From the NCBI GenBank assembly GCA_017398045.1, contig JAFQHI010000017.1:1-64000 (forward strand): a stretch of 64,000 nt of DNA. Reading direction: 5' to 3'. The notes under the pieces are model-generated. The model had not been told where the DNA came from, did not search any database, and was given only the letters and a program-made list of their open reading frames with translations. Of the stretch, positions 49,552-61,962 are shown in pieces; positions within the stretch are counted from its first letter, which is position 1, and the number at the start of each line of letters is the position of its first letter. The position numbers and the translations under genes are program-made. Source of the stretch: Alistipes sp. (GTDB taxonomy: Bacteria; Bacteroidota; Bacteroidia; Bacteroidales; Rikenellaceae).

Positions 49552-51102
49552 TTATTGTTTGGGTTTAAGTACGATGTAGGGAACAATCATCTCCTCCATC
49601 GAGATGCCGCCGTGCTGGAACGTGTTGCGGTAGTAGCGCACGAAGCGGTTGGCATCGTTGTTATAGACCAAAAAGTCGCTGTTGTAGGCGAAGATATAGC
49701 TCGACGAGAGGTTTCCGGCCGGCAGCTGGATATCCTCCGGACGCTGCACCTCATAGACCTCGCGGGCGTTGTATTGCAGGTTGCGACCCGTCTTGTAGCG
49801 CAGGTTCGACGAAGTCTCCCTATCGCCCGTCACGCGCACCGGATTATCGACACGAATCGTACCGTGGTCCGAGGTGATGATGACCGTGTGGCCCTTCTCG
49901 GAGAGGAGTTTGAGTATCGTGTAGAGGTCCGAATGTTCGAACCAGGAGCGGGTCAGCGAGCGGAAAGCAGCCTCATTTTCAGTTAGTTCGCGCACCACGT
50001 CGGTCTCGGTACGGGCGTGCGAAAGAATATCGAGGAAGTTATAGACGATGACCGAAAAATCGGCCTCATAGACGCGACGGATGTTCTCCACCAGCTTGCG
50101 CCCCTGCTCGGGACGGACGAGCTTGTCGAAGGTCATCTTCCACGACTTGCCACTCTGGCTCATCAAGCGTCGCAGGAACTCCTCCTCGTATTGGTTTTTA
50201 CCCCCCTCCTCGTTGTCGTTGAGCCACTTCTGGGGCATCAGGCGGTCGATGGCCAAGGGCATCAGACCGGCAAAGAGGGCATTGCGGGCATACTGCGTAG
50301 CGGTGGGCAGGATGGCGCAATAGAAGTCATCGACCGCCACATCGTAGTAACCGCGCAACATCGAGGAGATGGCTCGCCACTGGTCGTAACGGAAGTTGTC
50401 GATGAGGAGCAATGTCGTCTTCGTATGCTCGTCCACCACCGGAAAAATCATCGAACGCATGAGCGTATGCGACATGGTGGGGGTATCCTCCCCGCGATGG
50501 TTAATCCAATGGTAGTAGTTGCGCCTTACGAATTTCGAGAAGGCCTGGTTGGCCTCATTCTTTTGGTAGGCAAGTATCTCTTTGACACTCTGGTCGGTAG
50601 AATCCTCCAATTCAATTTCCCAGCCCGTCAGTCGGCGATAGAGCGAACACCAATCCTGGAACGTATCGGCCATCTGCAACGAGGTCGAAAGACGACCAAA
50701 TTCGGAGCGGTAGTCGGCCGTGGTCTGCTCGGTGACGAGCTGCTGCTGGTGGACATTCTTCTTAATCGAGAGCAGCACCTGGTTCGGATTGACGGGTTTG
50801 ATGAGATAGTCGGCAATCTTCGAACCGATGGCCTTGTTCATGATGTTCTCCTCCTCGCTCTTGGTCACCATGATAACGGGCGTGGTGGGACGCACCTCCT
50901 TGATTTTGGGCAGCGTCTCAAGCCCCGTCATACCGGGCATCATCTCGTCGAGGATAATCAGGTCATAGGCCTCCTCCGACGCCATATCAATCGCGTCGTA
51001 ACCGTTGTTGCAGGTATCCACCTCGTAACCCTTCTGATTTAGAAACAGCAGGTGCGGCTTCAACAGCTCAACCTCATCGTCCACCCAAAGAATTTTAACC
51101 AT
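49552..51102 (-). CDS. porX: PorX-type response regulator with PglZ/alkaline-phosphatase-like effector
   Basis: PorX is the response regulator of the type IX secretion system. The 516-residue protein has an N-terminal receiver (1-120; KILWVDDEVELL, phospho-acceptor Asp in DLIILDEMMPG near 52, KPVNPNQVL near 107). A helical linker follows. The C-terminal PglZ-like alkaline-phosphatase-superfamily domain has DNFRYDQWRAI near 215, SVIVYNFLDIL near 355 and TVIITSDHGTIRVDNP near 412-427. These metal-binding Asp/His residues fit the known fold. Its sensor partner PorY is not in the window. Confidence 0.92.
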   Translation of the reverse strand: MVKILWVDDEVELLKPHLLFLNQKGYEVDTCNNGYDAIDMASEEAYDLIILDEMMPGMTGLETLPKIKEVRPTTPVIMVTKSEEENIMNKAIGSKIADYLIKPVNPNQVLLSIKKNVHQQQLVTEQTTADYRSEFGRLSTSLQMADTFQDWCSLYRRLTGWEIELEDSTDQSVKEILAYQKNEANQAFSKFVRRNYYHWINHRGEDTPTMSHTLMRSMIFPVVDEHTKTTLLLIDNFRYDQWRAISSMLRGYYDVAVDDFYCAILPTATQYARNALFAGLMPLAIDRLMPQKWLNDNEEGGKNQYEEEFLRRLMSQSGKSWKMTFDKLVRPEQGRKLVENIRRVYEADFSVIVYNFLDILSHARTETDVVRELTENEAAFRSLTRSWFEHSDLYTILKLLSEKGHTVIITSDHGTIRVDNPVRVTGDRETSSNLRYKTGRNLQYNAREVYEVQRPEDIQLPAGNLSSSYIFAYNSDFLVYNNDANRFVRYYRNTFQHGGISMEEMIVPYIVLKPKQ

Positions 51103-51280: not shown

Positions 51281-52504
51281 TCAGGCGTGCCATCTTCCTT
51301 CGAAGGGTTTGAGTTGCTCGGAGAGGCGCGTCAATTCGCGGTCCAGATGCGCACGGGTGATGTTGGCATAAATCTGTGTCGTGCGTATCGAAGCATGGCC
51401 CAAAAGGCGCGAAATAGCCTCAATCGACATCCCGTGCGAAAGGGTCAGGGTCGTGGCAAAGGTGTGACGCGCCACATGAAAGGTAACGCGCTTGTCGATA
51501 TGGGCGAGTTGCATGAGCTGCCTTAAACAACGGTTGCACCAGCTGTTGCTCGGCAAGGGGAAAATCGGCCGTTCACGCTCTTCGGTCCGGTATTTTTCGA
51601 GAATCGCACGCGCCACATCGAGCAGGCGAACCTGCACCTCCGAGCCGGTCTTATGGCGGGTCGTTTCAATCCACCAATCACCGTTAAAGGCGACCACTTC
51701 GTTCGGCGTCAGGGTCTTCAGGTCGATGAACGAAAGCCCCGTGAAACAGCTGAAGAGGAAGGCATCGCGCACCAGCTGCATCGACGGGGAGAGTCCTTCG
51801 AGCGACATGAGGCGCAACAGCTCCTCCTCGGTGAGGAATTGGCGACGGACAAACTCGTTCTGCACGCGGTAATCCTCAAACGGGTCATCGAAGACGGCTC
51901 CCTGCTTGCGTCCCCACCGCAGGATATGCTTCAGGGCCGACAGATAGACCCAGACGGTGTTTTTACGATGGCCCGCACCGCGCACCAGATAGCCATGGAA
52001 GGCGGAGAGGAAGGCTTGGTCGAGCCGCTCCAACGGGATATCCGCCTCATCGACATAGCAGGGCAGGAAGTACGTCAGGTGGCGTTCGATGCTCACGTAC
52101 TTATAGAAGGTCGAGCGGCTGCGGCTGACCCCGACCTGGCGTTCAAACTCCGCATTGTGGCGACGAACAAGGTGCAGCACCCCCTCCGAGGGACCCGCCG
52201 AACCGAAAAATCGCTCTCGCACCTCACGGGGCGTTACGGCAAAGCGATGCTGCCGCATTTCGGCATAGCAATCCTCCAACCCCAACCGCATCTCATCCAA
52301 GGCGCGGTTGAGCCGAATTATCTGCGCCGAGCGGCCGATGGCGCGATTTTGACCGACATCCCACGCCACTGGAGGTACAGCCAGCCGCGTGGAGAATTGT
52401 GCGCGTTGCCCATTGATGGTGATGCGCCCCATGATGGGGACCAATCCGCTACGCAACGGTGCGCTGCGCTTGATGTAGAACAACACATTACAGGTGTCTC
52501 TCAT
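51281..52504 (-). CDS. Bacteroidota-type tyrosine recombinase (candidate shufflon invertase)
   Basis: The 407-residue protein has an N-terminal arm-binding domain (about 1-95), a SAM-like core-binding domain (about 100-210; GVSRSRSTFYKYVSIERHLTYFL) and a catalytic domain. The catalytic K is in HKTGSEVQV near 293, the HxxR box is HVARHTFAT near 350 and the nucleophile Tyr is in LGHASIRTTQIYA near 382. The first catalytic Arg position reads CFTGLSFIDL, with Ser, a substitution also usual in related Bacteroidota integrases. It sits 157 bp before the susD gene of the silent cassettes and has no phage or conjugation genes around it. Inversion of the cassettes is a strong guess. Confidence 0.85.
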   Translation of the reverse strand: MRDTCNVLFYIKRSAPLRSGLVPIMGRITINGQRAQFSTRLAVPPVAWDVGQNRAIGRSAQIIRLNRALDEMRLGLEDCYAEMRQHRFAVTPREVRERFFGSAGPSEGVLHLVRRHNAEFERQVGVSRSRSTFYKYVSIERHLTYFLPCYVDEADIPLERLDQAFLSAFHGYLVRGAGHRKNTVWVYLSALKHILRWGRKQGAVFDDPFEDYRVQNEFVRRQFLTEEELLRLMSLEGLSPSMQLVRDAFLFSCFTGLSFIDLKTLTPNEVVAFNGDWWIETTRHKTGSEVQVRLLDVARAILEKYRTEERERPIFPLPSNSWCNRCLRQLMQLAHIDKRVTFHVARHTFATTLTLSHGMSIEAISRLLGHASIRTTQIYANITRAHLDRELTRLSEQLKPFEGRWHA

Positions 52505-52660: not shown

Positions 52661-54286
52661 TTACTCGATAAGGTCGTTATACTGGGTCTCATTCAACGGA
52701 ATGGTCCATACCCAGTCATTCGTACCCTCATCGTTCGGGCCAACCGTTACGGCGAAGTTGATACCAAACGTACCACCCTGACCATTGCGGTAGCTCTTAC
52801 GCGAAATCGAAGCACCCGTACGCTTCAGGTCGAACCAGTCGTGGCCCTCACCCCAAAGCTCGGCACGACGATAGAACATAATCTCGTCAATCAGGGCCTG
52901 ACCCGTCTTGGTCGATTTCTCATACGACGAATCCAAACGCGAGTTTACGGTATAGAGCAAATTCTGAGCCGTTGCATAGTCGGGATTTGCCTGCTTGCAA
53001 AGAGCCTCAGCCTGAAGCAGATAGAACTCCGACGCGCGCATCCAGCACATCTGCGAGATACCCGGCATACCGGTAGCACCAAACTTCAGCTGACCGTAAA
53101 TAGCCGGACGTACCGGATAGGCCTGCGTAAGCACGATATTTGCATACACACCCGGAACACTGAAGGCATAACTCAAAAGTGCATTCGAAAGAGCCTTACC
53201 CTCGGCCGTGCTGGGGTTAGCCCAAGCATACGAAGTAATACCACCGTTAGCAACTACCTCATCATAGTCATAGCCGACAAGGCTAGCGCACATAAAGAGC
53301 TGCTTACGAGCATCCGTATCGTTCAGGGCATCAACCAACTCACGGTTACCGAGGACGTTGTAACCACCTGCTGCACTGTAATAGCCATTGTAGGCGTGGT
53401 AGCAACCAAAGGTGTAATACCACATATTCTCCACCTCATCGGCATAACCACCGAAAATCCACTCGGGATTAGCGGTGTGGAAACCGGCCTGGAACTCCGA
53501 AGCCGACATCAGCGATACACCCTCATAGGCCTTAGCCGAATAGGTAGCAGCAGTCGTCCAATCCTCGCGTACAGCAGCGGCACGAGCCTTAACACCATAA
53601 GCCATATTCAGGCTGGGGTGATAGAACGCCGAAGCCGACTTGCCGGACTCACCATAAAGGGCAATGGCATCATCGCAATCCTGATAGACTTGAGCCAATA
53701 CATCGGCCGTCGTCGAAAGCGGCATATTGTCCAGCGAGTTGGTAAGACGCAGTACGCAGCAATTCGATGCGCCCTGGTCATCCATCCAACGCTTACCAAA
53801 GATTTGTGCCAAATAGGTGTAGCAGTAAGCACGATAGGTAAGAGCCTGCGCCTTATAGAATGCGCGCAAGTCCTCATCACCCTCCGCTACATCAATACCG
53901 GCCAAAATGCGGTTAGCCTGACCAATAATCTGATAAAGGAACCACCAAGCATAACCTGCATAAGCAGCATTGTTAGCCGTCATCAGTTTCATGTTAGCCG
54001 AGTTAAAACCGCCATAGGTCTCACCCGACCAATCGTTACCGCAGCTATTGCCGATATCGGTCAAAACATCGCACATACCGCAGTAGCCTTGACCGTAGTT
54101 ACCTTGCTGATAAACCATCAACAAGCTCAAGCCATTGATATAGTTTCCGTAGTACGAAACATCGGTCGAAAGCACATCATCCGAAAGCGAGTTCGACGAC
54201 GAGGTCTCCAGATAATCCTCCGAGCAAGCGGTCAGCATCAATGCACCAGCCAAGAGGACACCTACATATTTCATCATTCTTTTCAT
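52661..54286 (-). CDS. SusD/RagB-family lipoprotein (cassette A)
   Basis: This is the surface glycan-binding lipoprotein that caps its SusC transporter. The 541-residue protein starts MKRMMKYVGVLLAGALMLTACSEDYLETSS, with a lipobox LTAC and the family YLE motif. TPR-rich helical segments follow (NRILAGIDVAEGDEDLRAFYKAQALTYRAYCYTYLAQIFG), with C-terminal QALIDEIMFYRRAELWGEGHDWFDLKRTG. It is full length and intact, but it lies downstream of a SusC gene without a start, so it may be silent in this orientation. It ends in a terminator at 52601-52640. Confidence 0.92.
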   Translation of the reverse strand: MKRMMKYVGVLLAGALMLTACSEDYLETSSSNSLSDDVLSTDVSYYGNYINGLSLLMVYQQGNYGQGYCGMCDVLTDIGNSCGNDWSGETYGGFNSANMKLMTANNAAYAGYAWWFLYQIIGQANRILAGIDVAEGDEDLRAFYKAQALTYRAYCYTYLAQIFGKRWMDDQGASNCCVLRLTNSLDNMPLSTTADVLAQVYQDCDDAIALYGESGKSASAFYHPSLNMAYGVKARAAAVREDWTTAATYSAKAYEGVSLMSASEFQAGFHTANPEWIFGGYADEVENMWYYTFGCYHAYNGYYSAAGGYNVLGNRELVDALNDTDARKQLFMCASLVGYDYDEVVANGGITSYAWANPSTAEGKALSNALLSYAFSVPGVYANIVLTQAYPVRPAIYGQLKFGATGMPGISQMCWMRASEFYLLQAEALCKQANPDYATAQNLLYTVNSRLDSSYEKSTKTGQALIDEIMFYRRAELWGEGHDWFDLKRTGASISRKSYRNGQGGTFGINFAVTVGPNDEGTNDWVWTIPLNETQYNDLIE

Positions 54287-54326
54287 AGTGTTTTCGCTAT
54301 TTTAAATTACTATTAGGCATCCTTTA

Positions 54327-57300
54327 TTAGAGCTTCAGGCTCAAACCGAAGGTGTAAATACGAGCAGCAACGTAGGTCTGGTCCTGACCACCGTAGAACG
54401 AATACTGCGGGTTCAAACCATCACGCTTCGTGAAAGTGAAAGGATTCTCAACATTGAACGAAACGGTGCAATCACCCACACCCAGTTTCGACATCCACTT
54501 CGTAGGCAGCGTGTACGAAAGACCAATATTCTTCACGATGAAATACGAAGCATCAACCAACCAACGATTCGATGCGGCATACGTCTGGTTTGCATTGGCC
54601 GTGTCGTTCATCGGGAGAATGCTGTTCGATACGCGGTTGGGCGAATCGGCGGTCATACCCTCGGGAACAGCCGTCCACGAATTCAAAATATCCTTATGCA
54701 AAGCCTGAGGACCCTTCAGATAGGGATACATCAGCGTGCGATAGGTCGAATCGTAAACCTTGCCACCAATCGAATACGAGCAGAGTACGTTCAGCGACAG
54801 GTTCTTCCACGATACGTTGGTCTGCAAACCACCATATACATCGGGCAGAGCCTCACCCGACCAATCTCTCTTTGCGTAGGTCGTCGTCAGTGCATAGGGC
54901 GTATCGTTGATGACTACAACATCCGTAGCAGCCATCTCCTCGAGGTTGTAATCAACATCGTTGAATGCGTAAAGTGCGCGACCCGTCATCTGGTCAACAC
55001 CCTTATACTGGTAGAGGTAGAACTCATACATCGAGTGACCCTCCTCGAAGCGGTAATTGCCGGACAGGTAACCATTACCCTCCTCACCGGCAACGACGGG
55101 AAGCTCCTTCACCTCATTCTTCACGAACGAAGCATTAAAGCCCATATCCCACTTCCAATTCTTCGTCTTGACAATGTCAACATTCACAGCCAACTCAAGA
55201 CCCGAGTTTACAACAGAACCAATATTCTGCTGAACGGTAGGATAAGCCGAACCCGGCGACAGAGTACCTACCGAAGGAGCCATATTCACATCAAAGAGCA
55301 GGTCCTTCGAGGTCTTACGGAAATAGTCAAGCGTTACATCTACGCGATTCCACAAACGTGCATCCACACCAATATCGAACGACTGCGTGGTCTCCCACTG
55401 CAAAGCAGGGTTACCAAGCTGCGAAGCGAAAATCGTAGCAGAACCACCATTAATACCATAAGCACCCGTATAGGTCGAGCTGTATGCATAGTATCCGGCC
55501 GAAGCATCGTTACCTACTTCACCATACGATGCACGAACCTTCAAGAAATCAACCCAATCGACATCCTTCATGAAGGCCTCGTTCGAAGCCACCCACGAAG
55601 CACCGGCCGACCAGAAGTTACCCCAACGCGAGTCCTTGTGGAAACGCGACGAACCATCACGACGATACGAAGCCTCTACGAAGTAGCGGTTGTCGTAGTT
55701 GTAACGCGCACGGCCCAGATACGACTCCGTACGCGTCTTGTGTACATAACCGTCGATATACTTCATCGTAGCGAAGTTATCCATCACGTGCGTAGGCAAC
55801 GATTGGCCAATCTTCATCGAGAAATCATAGTTGTAATTCCACTGGTAGTTCTCGTGACCTACCATGGCATCTACATGATGCTTACCAAAGTCCTTGTTGT
55901 ACGTAAGCTGCTGCTGGAAGTTAATCGTATTATACTTATAATGCGTCTTCTCCATGCGACCTCCGTTCGAAGCACCGTCACCAATCTCGGGGTTGTTATA
56001 GGTCTGCGTATCCGAATTGCGACGATCAACCGACGCACGAACCGTAAACTCAAAATCCTTCAGGAAGGTAACCGTTGCATATGCGGCAGCGTTAAGCGTC
56101 GTACGATGCGTACGGTCATAGTCCTTCTCCAACTCGTAGGCAATGCTACGGTTCGAGAGGTAAGGAGATTCGGTATCATATACCGGCGCACCGTTCTCGT
56201 AAACAATCGCGCCATCTGCATCGTGTACATAAACCGGATATACGGGAGCCATCATACGAGCCGAATAGAACGGGTTGGCATAATACGACGAATAAGCCAT
56301 ACCGTGGAAATTGTTCTTCTGCAACGAACCCGAAAGATTAACACCCGTCTTAAACCACTTCTTCGGGCGGAAATTGGCCGACAGACGACCCGTCGTACGC
56401 TCGAAGTTGGTATTCTTTACATAGCCATCCTCGTTCAGATAACCAATCGATGCGAACACGTCGAACTTATCCGTTGCTGCATCAGCCTGAATGTTGTACT
56501 CGCCACGATAACCGGTCTCCTCGATGGCATCCATCCAGTCCAAGTCGGTATAACCGGCCAGACGCGAAGCAACAACCTTACCCTGAGCATCAAAAATGGC
56601 ATCATCGGCAGCGTCATAGATATTACGCTGAATGTAACCGGTGATGAGGTCCTCGTTAACAGCCGCACGAATATCGGCATCGGGCATACCGGCCATCGAT
56701 GCGCTGTAATCGTTGTAAAGCGTGTTGTACATCACCTCCATCCAAGGATCGGCCGACAGATTCTCATAATCTTTCAAACCGCGGGTGTAAACGCCCTGCT
56801 TGGTGCTGACATTCACATTCAACTTACCATCCGACTTACCTTTCTTGGTCGTAATAAGTACGACACCCGAAGCGGCACGCGAACCATAAAGAGCAGCCGA
56901 CGATGCATCCTTAAGCACCGAAATCGACTCAATGTCATTGGGGTTCAGGTCGCTCATCGAACCGGCAAAAATGTTACCGTCAACCACATAGAGCGGCGTG
57001 TTGTTACCGTTAATCGAGCCGAAACCACGAATCAGGATTTCAGCCGTAGCACCCGGCTCACCATACGAGCTGGACACCTGAACACCGGCCGAAGTACCCT
57101 CCAGGGTGCTGGTTACATCCGAAGTCGTGCGCTTCTCGATTACATCGGCTTTTACCATAGAAACCGAACCCGTGACGGCCTCCTTCGACGAAGTACCGTA
57201 GGCCACGACGATTACATCGTCGATAGCGTGCGTGTCCTCCTCGAGGGTAACCTCGATGTGCGACTTACCGGCAACATCGACCGTCTGCGGCACGTAGCCG

Positions 57301-57359
57301 ATTTCGGTAAGTGGCAAGACCAATGTGGTTGTTGCTCTTAAGGAGGACACGCACGCCAT
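54327..57359 (-). CDS. 5'-truncated SusC/RagA-family transporter (cassette A)
   Basis: This is a TonB-dependent glycan or peptide importer lacking its beginning. Family homology starts at IGYVPQTVDV (57302). The residues before it in the open frame (MACVSSLRATTTL...) are antisense of cassette B and have no signal peptide. From there on it is intact: end of the regulatory domain, the DDVIVVAYGTSSKEAVTG TonB-box/plug start, LYVVDGNIFAGSMSDLNPNDIESISVLKDASSAALYGSRAASGVVLITTKKGK in the plug, and a full barrel ending with an aromatic-hydrophobic C-terminus. No promoter lies in front. It looks like a silent cassette of an inversion system and not decay, since there are no internal stops. Confidence 0.9.
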   Translation of the reverse strand: MACVSSLRATTTLVLPLTEIGYVPQTVDVAGKSHIEVTLEEDTHAIDDVIVVAYGTSSKEAVTGSVSMVKADVIEKRTTSDVTSTLEGTSAGVQVSSSYGEPGATAEILIRGFGSINGNNTPLYVVDGNIFAGSMSDLNPNDIESISVLKDASSAALYGSRAASGVVLITTKKGKSDGKLNVNVSTKQGVYTRGLKDYENLSADPWMEVMYNTLYNDYSASMAGMPDADIRAAVNEDLITGYIQRNIYDAADDAIFDAQGKVVASRLAGYTDLDWMDAIEETGYRGEYNIQADAATDKFDVFASIGYLNEDGYVKNTNFERTTGRLSANFRPKKWFKTGVNLSGSLQKNNFHGMAYSSYYANPFYSARMMAPVYPVYVHDADGAIVYENGAPVYDTESPYLSNRSIAYELEKDYDRTHRTTLNAAAYATVTFLKDFEFTVRASVDRRNSDTQTYNNPEIGDGASNGGRMEKTHYKYNTINFQQQLTYNKDFGKHHVDAMVGHENYQWNYNYDFSMKIGQSLPTHVMDNFATMKYIDGYVHKTRTESYLGRARYNYDNRYFVEASYRRDGSSRFHKDSRWGNFWSAGASWVASNEAFMKDVDWVDFLKVRASYGEVGNDASAGYYAYSSTYTGAYGINGGSATIFASQLGNPALQWETTQSFDIGVDARLWNRVDVTLDYFRKTSKDLLFDVNMAPSVGTLSPGSAYPTVQQNIGSVVNSGLELAVNVDIVKTKNWKWDMGFNASFVKNEVKELPVVAGEEGNGYLSGNYRFEEGHSMYEFYLYQYKGVDQMTGRALYAFNDVDYNLEEMAATDVVVINDTPYALTTTYAKRDWSGEALPDVYGGLQTNVSWKNLSLNVLCSYSIGGKVYDSTYRTLMYPYLKGPQALHKDILNSWTAVPEGMTADSPNRVSNSILPMNDTANANQTYAASNRWLVDASYFIVKNIGLSYTLPTKWMSKLGVGDCTVSFNVENPFTFTKRDGLNPQYSFYGGQDQTYVAARIYTFGLSLKL
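57227..57356. other. Head-to-head junction of two SusC cassettes with a 15-bp inverted repeat
   Basis: The sequence GGAGGACACGCACGC occurs at 57342-57356, and its exact reverse complement at 57227-57241. Both copies encode the EDTHA part of their SusC genes. Between them lie 100 bp: the N-terminal IGYVPQTVDV end of cassette A (start 57302, reading left) abuts ISVSGKTNVV of cassette B (start about 57301, reading right). There is no promoter, RBS or signal sequence between the two genes. This is the likely recombination region. Confidence 0.7.
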
Positions 57360-60162
57360 TGATGACGTCGTTGTGGTAGCTTATGGTACCGCAAAGAAGT
57401 CGTCGCTCACGGGTGCAGTCTCGACTGTATCGGGTGAGGATGTGGCCAAGCTCCAGGTTTCGAACGTATCGAAGGCACTCGAGGGTGCTGTTCCGGGTGT
57501 TCAGGTGGCTATGTCCAGCGGTCAGCCCGGTTCGTCGGCTACGATTCGTGTCCGTGGTATCGGTTCGATTAACTCGAGCTCGGCTCCCCTCTACGTTGTA
57601 GATGGTATGCCTTATGATGGTAGCATCGCTGCTATCAATCCGTCGGATATCGAGTCGATGACCGTTCTGAAGGATGCCGCTTCGACCGCTCTTTACGGTT
57701 CGCGTGCAGCCAATGGTGTGATTATCATCACCACCAAGAAGGGTAATCGCGAGAAGACGAAGGTGACCTTCGAGGGTCGTGTCGGTGTGAACTCGCGCGG
57801 TATCTCGGAGTATGACATCATGAAGGATCCGGGTGAGTACATGGTAACCTACTGGCAGAAGCTTAAGAATGAGCTGGGTTCGGGTGCTGCTGCATCGGAG
57901 AGCCTTTACGCAGAGCTGGGTTACAACCCCTATGACTGCAACAACACGATGATTGTGGATGCCAACGGTAACCTGACGACCGCTCCCCTGAAGTGGACCG
58001 ATGATTGGGAGGATGAGGCCTTCCGCACGGGTATGCGTCAGGAGTACAACGTATCGTTGCAGGGTGGCAACGACCGTTCGTCGCACTTCCTCTCGCTCGG
58101 TTACCTGGAGGATGAGGGTATCATCAAGAAGTCGGATTACGAGCGTCTTTCGATTCGTGCCAATGGTGACTACCAGGTAAACGACTTCATCAAGGTAAAC
58201 GGTAGCGTTGCTTACGCACGTGGTGAGATGAACCAGCAGGCTATCTCGTCGCTCGCGAACTACGTGAATACCTTTATGTTCACGCAGTCGATTGCCCCGA
58301 TTTACCCCGTTTATGGTTATGATGAGGATGGCAACCGCGTTTATGACGAGAACGGCAAGCCGGTATATGACTTCGGTAACGGTGAGTTCGGTACGCGTGC
58401 TTACGCTTCGAACCAGAACGTAGTGGCTTCGGATGACGCCAACCGTTATCGCACGCTGACCGACAACCTCTCGACCCGTTTTGGTGTGAACATCAAGTTC
58501 CTCAAGGACTTCACCTTCGCGGTAAATGGTGGTTATGACCTGACGAACCAGGCTATCGACCGCTTCCAGACCCCGTCGTTCGGTGATGCCGAGCAGTCGG
58601 GTGGTCGCGCTTACAAGTATCGTACGCGCTACGAGACCTACACCATCAACGAGCTTTTGACCTATGCCAAGAAGTTTGGCAAGCACGATGTGGATGTGAT
58701 GGTTGGTCACGAGAACTACAACTACACCTACAACTATCTCTACAACGAGAAGACCAACTTCTTCGATCCTTATGTGGACGAGTTCTCGAACTCGCTCATC
58801 ATGGGTGGTATGAACTCCTACACGCAGGAGTACAAGGTTGAGTCGTACATGGCTCGCGCCAACTATAACTACGACGAGCGTTACTACGTTTCGGCTTCGT
58901 ACCGTCGTGATGGTTCGTCGCGTTTCGCAAAGGACAACCGCTGGGGTAACTTCTGGTCGGTAGGTGCTTCGTGGCGTATCTCGAACGAGCAGTTCATGAA
59001 GGATGTAGAGTGGGTTGACAACTTGAGCCTCCGCGCTTCGTATGGTAGCGTAGGTAACGATGATATCTACTACCCCGGTTCGTCGTCGAGCAACTACTAC
59101 GCTTACAAGACGCAGTATTCGGTTTCGAACTCGGACGGTGCCGCTTCGCTTACGAAGTACTATGAGGGTAACCCCGACCTGACGTGGGAGACCTCGTACA
59201 ACCTGAACGTAGGTCTTAGCGCAACGATGTTCAAGAACATCTTGAACGTGGACTTCGAGTACTTCCACAAGCGCACGGAGGATATGCTCTACAACATGCC
59301 GCAGCCGATGTCGTCGGGTATCTCGTCGCTCTCGATGAACGCTCTGACGATGCAGAACAAGGGTATCGAGTTCACGCTGGGTGTAAACATTCCGATGCCG
59401 AAGGATTTCTACTGGAACTGGACCTTCACGGGTACGCACTACACGAACGAGGTGCTTGATATTCCGGAGGATAAGCGAGAGGCAGGTATTACCCACCAGG
59501 CTTACTACAACATCCGCGAGGGTCGCAGCGTTTACGACTTCTACTACTACAAATATGCCGGCGTAAATGAGAACGGTAAGGCAACCTGGTATGTGGACTC
59601 GGAGGACGAGGATGGTAATCCGATTTTGGATACGACGACCGATTACTCGTCGGCTACGAAGTACTACATCGGTACGGCTCTGCCCGACTTCCAGGGTGGT
59701 GTTCAGATGGAGTTCGGCTGGAAGGGCATCGACTTCTCGATTGGTTTGAACTACCAGATTGGTGGTGATGTTTACGACTCGATGTATGCCGGTTTCATGC
59801 ACGCCGGTTCGGGTGCAGGTGACAACTGGCACCGCGACATCCTGAACGCTTGGACGCCGGAGAACAAGGATTCGAACATCCCCGTGCTGGATGGTGACCA
59901 GAATGCCAACGTATTCTCGGATCGCTTCCTCATCGATGGTTCGTACCTCAACCTGCGTAACATCACGCTCGGTTATACGTTCCCGAAGGCTTGGATGCGT
60001 AAGCTTCAGATTGAGAAGGCTCGTGTTTATGTCGTTGCCGACAACGTAGCTATCTGGTCGAAGCGTAAGGGTATGGACCCGCGTCAGTACATTGAGGGTC
60101 AGTCGGCCGCCAACTACTCGACGATTCGCACCATTTCGGCAGGTCTTTCGTTAACTTTCTAA
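57325..60162 (+). CDS. 5'-truncated SusC/RagA-family transporter (cassette B)
   Basis: The open frame reads in phase from about 57298 (ISVSGKTNVVVALKEDTHAIDDVVVVAYGT), closed in front by TAG at 57295-57297. The GTG at 57325 is only a nominal start. Signal peptide and most of the carboxypeptidase-regulatory domain are missing. The rest is complete: plug (GVQVAMSSGQPGSSATIRVRGIGSINSSSAPLYVVDGMPYDGSIAAINPSDIESMTVLKDAASTALYGSRAANGVIIITTKKGN) and barrel to the final IRTISAGLSLTF. It encodes 945 residues against about 1050 for a full SusC. The SusD partner follows 4 bp later. Silent unless recombined to a 5' exon. Confidence 0.9.
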   Translation: MVVALKEDTHAIDDVVVVAYGTAKKSSLTGAVSTVSGEDVAKLQVSNVSKALEGAVPGVQVAMSSGQPGSSATIRVRGIGSINSSSAPLYVVDGMPYDGSIAAINPSDIESMTVLKDAASTALYGSRAANGVIIITTKKGNREKTKVTFEGRVGVNSRGISEYDIMKDPGEYMVTYWQKLKNELGSGAAASESLYAELGYNPYDCNNTMIVDANGNLTTAPLKWTDDWEDEAFRTGMRQEYNVSLQGGNDRSSHFLSLGYLEDEGIIKKSDYERLSIRANGDYQVNDFIKVNGSVAYARGEMNQQAISSLANYVNTFMFTQSIAPIYPVYGYDEDGNRVYDENGKPVYDFGNGEFGTRAYASNQNVVASDDANRYRTLTDNLSTRFGVNIKFLKDFTFAVNGGYDLTNQAIDRFQTPSFGDAEQSGGRAYKYRTRYETYTINELLTYAKKFGKHDVDVMVGHENYNYTYNYLYNEKTNFFDPYVDEFSNSLIMGGMNSYTQEYKVESYMARANYNYDERYYVSASYRRDGSSRFAKDNRWGNFWSVGASWRISNEQFMKDVEWVDNLSLRASYGSVGNDDIYYPGSSSSNYYAYKTQYSVSNSDGAASLTKYYEGNPDLTWETSYNLNVGLSATMFKNILNVDFEYFHKRTEDMLYNMPQPMSSGISSLSMNALTMQNKGIEFTLGVNIPMPKDFYWNWTFTGTHYTNEVLDIPEDKREAGITHQAYYNIREGRSVYDFYYYKYAGVNENGKATWYVDSEDEDGNPILDTTTDYSSATKYYIGTALPDFQGGVQMEFGWKGIDFSIGLNYQIGGDVYDSMYAGFMHAGSGAGDNWHRDILNAWTPENKDSNIPVLDGDQNANVFSDRFLIDGSYLNLRNITLGYTFPKAWMRKLQIEKARVYVVADNVAIWSKRKGMDPRQYIEGQSAANYSTIRTISAGLSLTF

Positions 60163-60166
60163 AAAC

Positions 60167-61711
60167 ATGACGACTATGAAAATCAATATGAAAAGCATTT
60201 TCGGCGTGTTGCTGCTGGGTGCAGCCATGCTGACCGCTTGCTCGGAGGATTATCTGGAGACGAAGCCTACGCACGTTCTCGACCAGGAGTCGGTGAATGA
60301 TGTAATGCAGGCTGACCCCGCACAGGTGCAGGCCTACGTAACGGGTGCTTTGCTCAATACCTATTGCGGTGGTGATTATTGGACCTCGCACGATGACTTC
60401 GGTATTCCCGCTTTGAAGCTTGTTACCGACCTCATGTGTGACGATATTGCCTACACGAACGACAACCACTTCTTCTGCTACGACTATCAGATGGACAACC
60501 GTCTGGGTAACTATCGTCGTACGTCGGCTGCCTGGAACCAGTTCTACAACATCATTGATGGCTGCAACACGATTGTCACGATGCTCAAGCCCGCCGAGGG
60601 TGAGACGGTTGAGGATGACCAGATTGCCACGATGTTGGGTTCGGCCTACACGATGCGTGCATGGGCGTACTATTGGCTCGTAAACCTCTGGCAGCACGCC
60701 TACAGTGTGAACCCCGATGCTCCGGGTGTTCCCTTGAAGAACGAGGTGGAGTATCGCGCCGAGCGCGTTCCCGTGAAGGATATTTACGCACAGATGACGA
60801 GCGACCTTAAGCTGGCCTATGGCTACCTGGAGGGCAAGGGCTACTACGGTGGCTCGAAGGGTGATGTAACCGAGTACTCGGCTGCCTTCATCTATGCCAA
60901 CGTCCTGATGATGATGAGTGAGCACGAGGAGGCTGCCAAGTATGCCGAGAAGGCTATCGCCGGTGGTTCGCTGAATGGCGCACAGCTCATGAGCGGTTTC
61001 AACTCGCTCGATATGGACGAGGTAATTTGGGGTTATGTTGTAAACGACGAGACGACGGGTTACTACGCTTCGCTCTTCTCGCACATTGACTCGTACTTCA
61101 TCGGTTACGGTGGTCAGGTAGGTTACCGCAAGATGATTTCGTCGGAGCTGTACGACCAGATTAAGGATACCGATATCCGTAAGGGTTGGTTCGGCTACAA
61201 CGAGAACTACAACCTGCTTGGTATCGTGTATGAGTATGAGGAGTACTATGGTCTTACGCAGTATATCTCGAACAAGTTCCGCGATGTTTACATGACCACG
61301 ATGGGTAGTGCAAGCCCCTTCACGTCGGCTATTATCCACCAGCGTATTGCCGAGATGTATTTCGTGGCTGCCGAGGCTTACTATCTGGCCGGCAACACCT
61401 CGAAGGCTCAGCAGATGCTGAACGCAATTATGGTTACGCGTGATACGACTTACAACTGCACCCTTTCGGGTCAGGCTCTCTACGATGAGATTTGCCTCCA
61501 GAAGCGTATTGAGATGTGGGAGGAGGGTTGCCGCTACTTCGACGTAAAGCGTCGTGGCGAGACCATCGACCGCAAGAAGTCGACCAACCACTCGGCATCG
61601 CTGACCAACTTCAACGCTTGGACCTACGAGTCGACCGACTACCGCATGATTTATCGCATCCCGAAGAACGAGTTGGATAACAACCCGTCGATTACGGAGG
61701 ATAACAAGTAA
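60167..61711 (+). CDS. SusD/RagB-family lipoprotein (cassette B)
   Basis: The 514-residue surface lipoprotein has the signal MKSIFGVLLLGAAMLTACSEDYLETKP with lipobox LTAC. Three ATGs (60167, 60176, 60188) could start it; 60188 gives the most compact signal. Helical SusD segments follow (QIATMLGSAYTMRAWAYYWLVNLWQHAYSV) with the C-terminal QALYDEICLQKRIEMWEEGCRYFDVKRRGETI. It pairs with the cassette B SusC 4 bp upstream. It shares the TACSEDYLET start with the cassette A SusD but differs after it, so the two pairs probably bind different ligands. Confidence 0.93.
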   Translation: MTTMKINMKSIFGVLLLGAAMLTACSEDYLETKPTHVLDQESVNDVMQADPAQVQAYVTGALLNTYCGGDYWTSHDDFGIPALKLVTDLMCDDIAYTNDNHFFCYDYQMDNRLGNYRRTSAAWNQFYNIIDGCNTIVTMLKPAEGETVEDDQIATMLGSAYTMRAWAYYWLVNLWQHAYSVNPDAPGVPLKNEVEYRAERVPVKDIYAQMTSDLKLAYGYLEGKGYYGGSKGDVTEYSAAFIYANVLMMMSEHEEAAKYAEKAIAGGSLNGAQLMSGFNSLDMDEVIWGYVVNDETTGYYASLFSHIDSYFIGYGGQVGYRKMISSELYDQIKDTDIRKGWFGYNENYNLLGIVYEYEEYYGLTQYISNKFRDVYMTTMGSASPFTSAIIHQRIAEMYFVAAEAYYLAGNTSKAQQMLNAIMVTRDTTYNCTLSGQALYDEICLQKRIEMWEEGCRYFDVKRRGETIDRKKSTNHSASLTNFNAWTYESTDYRMIYRIPKNELDNNPSITEDNK

Positions 61712-61887: not shown

Positions 61888-61960
<73 letters not shown>

Positions 61961-61962
61961 CA

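Follow-up and report, generated by a model that had tools for sequence, protein, structure and literature searches.

Shufflon-type inversions of SusC/SusD genes by the tyrosine recombinase Tsr0667 were reportedly described in Bacteroides fragilis by Nakayama-Imaohji et al. in 2009. In the accessible parts of the literature, Tsr0667 is linked to such inversions at three SusC/SusD clusters of B. fragilis (PMC4747536), invertible regions are located in or near SusC/SusD genes of Bacteroidales (PMC12632263, PMC10939037), and the capsule and EPS loci of Bacteroidales carry invertible promoters, with Mpi and Tsr19/BF2766 (PMC4747536, PMC12632263). No report of a SusC/SusD promoter switch in Alistipes was found in the literature, which was covered in part, and the accessible part of PMC8327913 does not concern one. 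Systems of this kind are already known, and the Alistipes locus is best classed as one more of them.

The locus lies in the window, a stretch of 64,000 nucleotides that is part of contig C4 of an Alistipes metagenome-assembled genome (MAG) with 2,358,920 bases in 56 contigs and a completeness of 91.5%. On balance, we regard it as an Alistipes SusC/SusD phase-variation locus with a missing centre, in which the 5´ ends, the sites and the promoter were most likely lost in assembly. Two divergent SusC-SusD cassettes occupy one locus, with a tyrosine recombinase of the switch family beside them (Table 1). An earlier interpretation of the DNA (the sequence-only reading) mentioned neither this recombinase nor PorX to the left and the tRNA-Phe to the right. 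Both SusC genes lack a complete 5´ end of their own, and the stretch that would carry the inverted sites upstream of each SusC is missing from the window. Because this site-bearing stretch is absent from the assembled DNA, we do not count the window in its present form as a full member of the switch family.

Table 1. Features of the SusC/SusD locus in the window.
Feature	Position	Strand	Basis
PorX (T9SS response regulator), left chromosomal flank	49552..51102	-	NCBIfam NF052313, 789.6 bits
Tyrosine recombinase, 407 aa, candidate invertase of the switch	51281..52504	-	Pfam Phage_integrase, Arm-DNA-bind_5, Phage_int_SAM_5
SusD_A, complete, 541 aa	52661..54286	-	ORF; Pfam SusD_RagB/SusD-like_3
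SusC_A body, without ~74 N-terminal codons, start, RBS and promoter	54327..57302	-	ORF, Pfam TonB plug, TIGR04056
Arm of the exact inverted 14-mer within SusC_A (EDTHA codons), ordinary coding sequence	57226..57239	-	
Joint; ~1 kb missing compared with L126/L150 (two 5´ ends, two inverted sites, promoter)	57298..57313		
SusC_B body, without ~81 N-terminal codons, start, RBS and promoter	57301..60162	+	ORF, Pfam TonB plug, TIGR04056
Second arm of the exact inverted 14-mer, within SusC_B (EDTHA codons), ordinary coding sequence	57343..57356	+	
SusD_B, complete, 514 aa	60167..61711	+	ORF; Pfam SusD_RagB/SusD-like_3
tRNA-Phe(GAA), right flank of the locus	61888..61961	+	

The open reading frames, Pfam and NCBIfam TIGR04056 bear out what had been noticed from the sequence, namely that two complete SusD genes and two SusC genes diverge from one point and that the SusC genes have no signal peptide, promoter or RBS. 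The two SusC bodies meet head to head at the joint, where a 5-bp CCGAT/ATCGG microhomology is possible. The SusC/RagA profile TIGR04056 is matched from position 41 in SusC_A and position 68 in SusC_B, compared with position 1 in a complete relative. The homology of SusC_A to its relatives begins at I-G-Y (57302 downward), which corresponds to codon 75 of the orthologue in locus L077, while that of SusC_B begins at approximately I-S-V-S-G-K-T (57301 upward), which corresponds to approximately codon 82; a TAG just upstream closes the SusC_B frame. Both starting codons are near the end (codon 81) of the tract that is identical between A and B in L077. In the window, SusC_A and SusC_B differ in sequence at the joint and share no in-frame site there. 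The ATG and GTG starts that are mechanically listed for the two SusC frames are not credible, as they are located in the antisense of the other gene or inside the body.

Neither SusC body contains an internal stop (A to 54327, B to 60162). SusC_A has a dN of 0.098 and a dS of 0.78 against genome G088, which indicates purifying selection and supports the earlier statement that these intact frames are not decayed genes; in comparisons with L077 the synonymous sites are near saturation. Complete orthologues of SusC_A are present in L107 of G088 (85% identity) and in L077 (76%), and L077 also contains a complete orthologue of SusC_B (74%). SusD_A shares 82% and 70% identity with its counterparts in L107 and L077, respectively, and SusD_B shares 66% with that in L077. 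Both SusD proteins of the window carry an N-terminal ...LTACSEDYLET stretch.

A scan of genome contigs for relatives of the window returned two loci, L077 and L078. L077, from a rabbit MAG (uncultured Alistipes sp. isolate Lapin-030), contains the A and B orthologues together with their SusD genes, and each SusC is complete; L078 is 35% identical and has its own start. The L077 record also turns up as G179 in the same-genus set, which puts the genome of the window in that genus. Joint-like DNA is present in 23 of the 121 same-genus genomes drawn, the window's own included. Twenty regions were taken from 16 of the other 22 (G007, G009, G023, G047, G059 and G120 were left out), and 10 more were added after the site census, for a total of 32 related loci. 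In these loci, 43 of 46 SusC 5´ ends possess an own in-frame start, 72–185 codons ahead of the position taken here as the start of the body, and the remaining three (L110, L116 and L122) run off the contig end; the 46 count the three SusC genes of one record twice, as L077 and L150. A 5´-less internal SusC body is not found among the 46 relative 5´ ends examined. A search of viral contigs with a 29-base SusC_A pattern gave no match.

The synteny of the locus is also conserved. The layout PorX-recombinase-SusD-SusC, followed by divergent SusC-SusD and tRNA-Phe, is complete in G038, and L126 matches the window in gene order but retains both 5´ ends, with the ATGs 549 bp apart. The sequence-only reading considered the head-to-head arrangement different from the usual one with a promoter in the middle; compared with L126, L144, L147, L149 and L151, the window has that arrangement with the middle missing. 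The size of the loss (~1 kb) is estimated from the ATG-to-ATG distances in L126 and L150 (549 and 538 bp) plus both 5´ ends. PorX adjoins the recombinase in L108, L109, L112, L115, L126 and L150, homologues of the window recombinase (60–64% identity) are located near SusD-SusC in L109, L112, L115, L126 and L150, and the tRNA-Phe is matched in 12 of the 30 relative loci searched, two of these partially. The contigs of G027 (L112) and G024 (L115) end 281 and 244 bp after the tRNA-Phe, respectively, with one SusC/SusD cassette visible. Distant recombinases (31–33% identity) are located upstream of related SusC 5´ ends at L142:10439-11635 and L114:10218-10967, which suggests that the recombinase may have been replaced there.

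In the rabbit MAG, the A and C SusC genes are identical from -37 to +296 around the ATG, and the B SusC is identical with A or C from -8 to +242; all three copies of this 5´ exon in that genome lie within one cluster. The left cassette of this locus (L150) is C, the right one is B, and A (L150:15037-19901) is found beyond the tRNA-Phe. In the window, A is beside the recombinase. In G088, the cassettes are on two contigs, whose ends lie 37 and 157 bp upstream of the ATG; A adjoins the tRNA-Phe there, and another cassette adjoins the recombinase. Judging from these three arrangements, the cassettes seem to change position between species. The 5´ ends of the cassettes share 95–100% identity over 290 bp from the site in L150, and 98%, then 71%, in L126, while loci with the recombinase inside show just 34–82% over the first 150 bp.

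Most SusC starts of the relatives are preceded by ACTTTTTATTTNNAAAA at approximately 37 bp from the ATG; on one side of L121-type loci, the distance is approximately 110 bp. In intact relatives, an inverted copy of this site precedes each SusC, outside the coding sequence and upstream of the ATG. The exact site-plus-start pattern occurs in at least 14 of 180 same-genus genomes, a lower bound since no mismatches were allowed. Two or more sites beside SusC starts are present in 10 of the 29 loci scanned, a scan that excludes L116 and the sites L107 -14523 and L142 +18387, which are not beside a SusC start. These 10 loci represent about five lineages by DNA comparison and gene content. With up to two mismatches, no site is found in L109, L110, L112, L113, L114, L117, L119, L120, L122, L123 or L124; L107, L119, L123 and L124 begin inside the site.

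The promoter motif is asymmetric. NAnnTTTG is located close upstream of exactly one site in all 10 multi-site loci, and the stricter [TG]AnnTTTG is found in nine of them, 14–15 bp from the site, with CATCTTTG in L147. We take TAnnTTTG to be the -7 promoter element of Bacteroidota. The segment between the sites is inverted among relatives: L121 and L125 are collinear outside (96% and 94% identity), and between them a 1766-bp segment, bounded by GTGGACTTTTTATTTTAAAAA and carrying the recombinase and the promoter motif, aligns in the opposite orientation at 88% identity. L149 runs collinear with L125, and against L121 it shows the inversion. L147 and L151 are likewise collinear (93% and 90%) around an inverted segment with 1277 aligned bp at 73%, and L144 and L145 share the same orientation. 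This evidence of inversion is between related species in two groups, not within a population. The recombinase gene is located inside the site-bounded segment in L121, L125, L143, L144, L145, L147, L149 and L151, and reads in the same direction as the promoter motif in 8/8 of these loci.

Because sites precede each SusC, the promoter motif is one-sided, and a segment with recombinase and promoter is inverted between collinear flanks, the locus resembles a SusC/SusD phase-variation system that works by promoter inversion, similar to that of B. fragilis. In intact relatives, two divergent SusC-SusD cassettes, each with its own 5´ end encoding the signal peptide and N-terminal domain, are preceded by an inverted site (approximately ACTTTTTATTTNNAAAA), and the segment between the sites carries one outward-facing promoter motif (TAnnTTTG, 14–15 bp from the site); a tyrosine recombinase is encoded within this segment or next to the locus. 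By flipping, the segment would point the promoter at either cassette, and a cell would express a single transporter pair at any one time. The recombinase presumably performs the inversion, and the window recombinase is a candidate to act on the site, which is itself absent from the assembly of the window species. The switch is probably active in this species, whose own two 5´ ends are expected to be near-identical; the assembly would have dropped these inverted ends and joined the two bodies.

The earlier proposal that the expressed 5´ exon lies elsewhere in the genome was not borne out by the assembly. The junction 14-mer with three further bases occurs at only the two window places in the whole assembly at up to two mismatches. 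The 5´ exon of the relatives gives 25 matches, to other SusC genes (52% amino acid identity at best) and to the window's own bodies. The recombination site GTGRACTTTTTATTTNNAAA, at up to two mismatches, has no match in the whole 91.5%-complete assembly. The remote exon was sought by DNA, protein and site pattern, and other SusC genes were found, none of them with a matching 5´ end. On the sequence-only reading, the window would hold two silent cassettes, to be expressed once recombination places them behind a SusC 5´ exon that is active elsewhere in the genome; we consider this very unlikely. Such cassettes would account for two SusC genes that begin at nearly the same codon without a start or promoter and next to a recombinase gene, and the available description of three SusC/SusD clusters in B. 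fragilis offers a precedent of shufflon-type inversion (PMC4747536). However, no donor exon, junction or site was found elsewhere in the 91.5%-complete assembly, A and B have no common in-frame site at the joint, the relatives' site is upstream of the ATG, and 0/46 of their 5´ ends belong to 5´-less internal bodies. Of the earlier interpretation as a SusC/SusD switching system, the family with its recombinase and switched transporters is thus supported by the comparison, while the silent-cassette mechanism is not, given that 43 of 46 SusC genes have their own starts.

The exact inverted 14-mer GAGGACACGCACGC, which encodes EDTHA in both SusC genes, was rejected as the recombination site. It is coding in both genes and has no further copy in the assembly, and its use would invert just 103 bp with no promoter inside. 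Its arms are at unequal distances from the joint, and in a shuffle control at up to two mismatches, 10 of 100 shuffles gave two or more matches.

For the missing ~1 kb, assembly loss is the likeliest explanation and a real deletion comes second. Five of the 16 measured exon copies are on contigs that end 34–37 bp upstream of the ATG; the count leaves out L120, the 10 loci added after the site census and, where a locus has two exons, the second copy. These five contigs (L107, L111, L119, L123 and L124), each from a different genome, start with the opening bases of the site. Such ends would be expected where reads conflict past this point, and could mean that both orientations are present in the sampled populations. 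Three further contigs end inside the exon. In the MAG of the window, all 4420 bases of contig C45 (L152, G000:C45:1-4420) are 99.98% identical to part of C1 (L153), and C45 begins inside SusC near codon 80; the assembly therefore includes redundant sequence, on a contig broken close to the 5´ end of a SusC. It counts against assembly loss that the contigs of 11 of the 16 measured copies extend more than 37 bp beyond the ATG on the upstream side, and that an assembler more usually breaks at such a spot rather than joins; collapse by identity is also not general, because the 5´ ends are just 34–82% alike in loci with the recombinase inside.

A real deletion in this strain, for instance by slippage at short microhomology, would have removed the inverted 5´ ends and the promoter and left two dead, promoterless pairs. 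The possible CCGAT microhomology, the position of the joint close to the outer limits of the inverted repeat expected here, the preserved flanking order, and the absence of exon and site from the assembly are consistent with it. However, the stop-free bodies of ~950–1000 codons and the low dN/dS of A would then require a recent event, no such joint is found among the 46 relative SusC 5´ ends, and in relatives contigs end at this very sequence, a sign of difficult assembly; we consider a deletion rather unlikely. The window might also contain ordinary divergent SusC/SusD operons that do not switch, with the shared intergenic region lost and the recombinase an unrelated integrase. The inversion is observed between related species and not in the window's species, and the recombinase has an arm-binding domain, which is common in integrases of integrative elements. 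Since homologous recombinases are repeatedly found next to this exon family and its site, where related species also differ by inversions, we give this little credence. We retain the reading of a switch locus whose loss at the joint is presumably an assembly effect.

Like the Tsr0667 system of B. fragilis, the putative Alistipes switch would choose among SusC/SusD pairs through DNA inversion by a tyrosine recombinase. Compared with that system as described in the available part of PMC4747536, the site in the Alistipes relatives is upstream of the ATG with the promoter between the sites, the recombinase gene is inside the segment in eight Alistipes loci, and the window copy has neither site nor promoter. 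The likeness to the invertible promoters of Bacteroidales capsule and EPS loci, as far as the consulted parts of their descriptions extend, is a promoter between inverted repeats that is ON or OFF by orientation; in contrast, the Alistipes motif is between two divergent transporter cassettes, so that inversion would swap expression. Within Alistipes, the window shares a recombinase, divergent SusC genes and related 5´ ends with L126, L150/L077, L121/L125/L149/L143, L147/L151 and L144/L145, and with L126 and L150 also the PorX and tRNA-Phe flanks; unlike the window, these loci are complete with sites and promoter motif.

Tentatively, the stretch from PorX to tRNA-Phe in Alistipes may be a hotspot of either/or SusC/SusD switching, in which cassettes are exchanged between positions and species, and recombination keeps window-type 5´ ends alike while new bodies are fitted behind a common secretion and regulatory start; we regard this as possible although doubtful. 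Taken at face value, the window sequence would lead annotators astray, to two dead or silent transporters. The relatives point to an either/or switch of nutrient receptors in Alistipes. The site and promoter signature is usable to find switch states in metagenome reads, and since MAG contigs end at the switch, switches of this kind may be under-counted.
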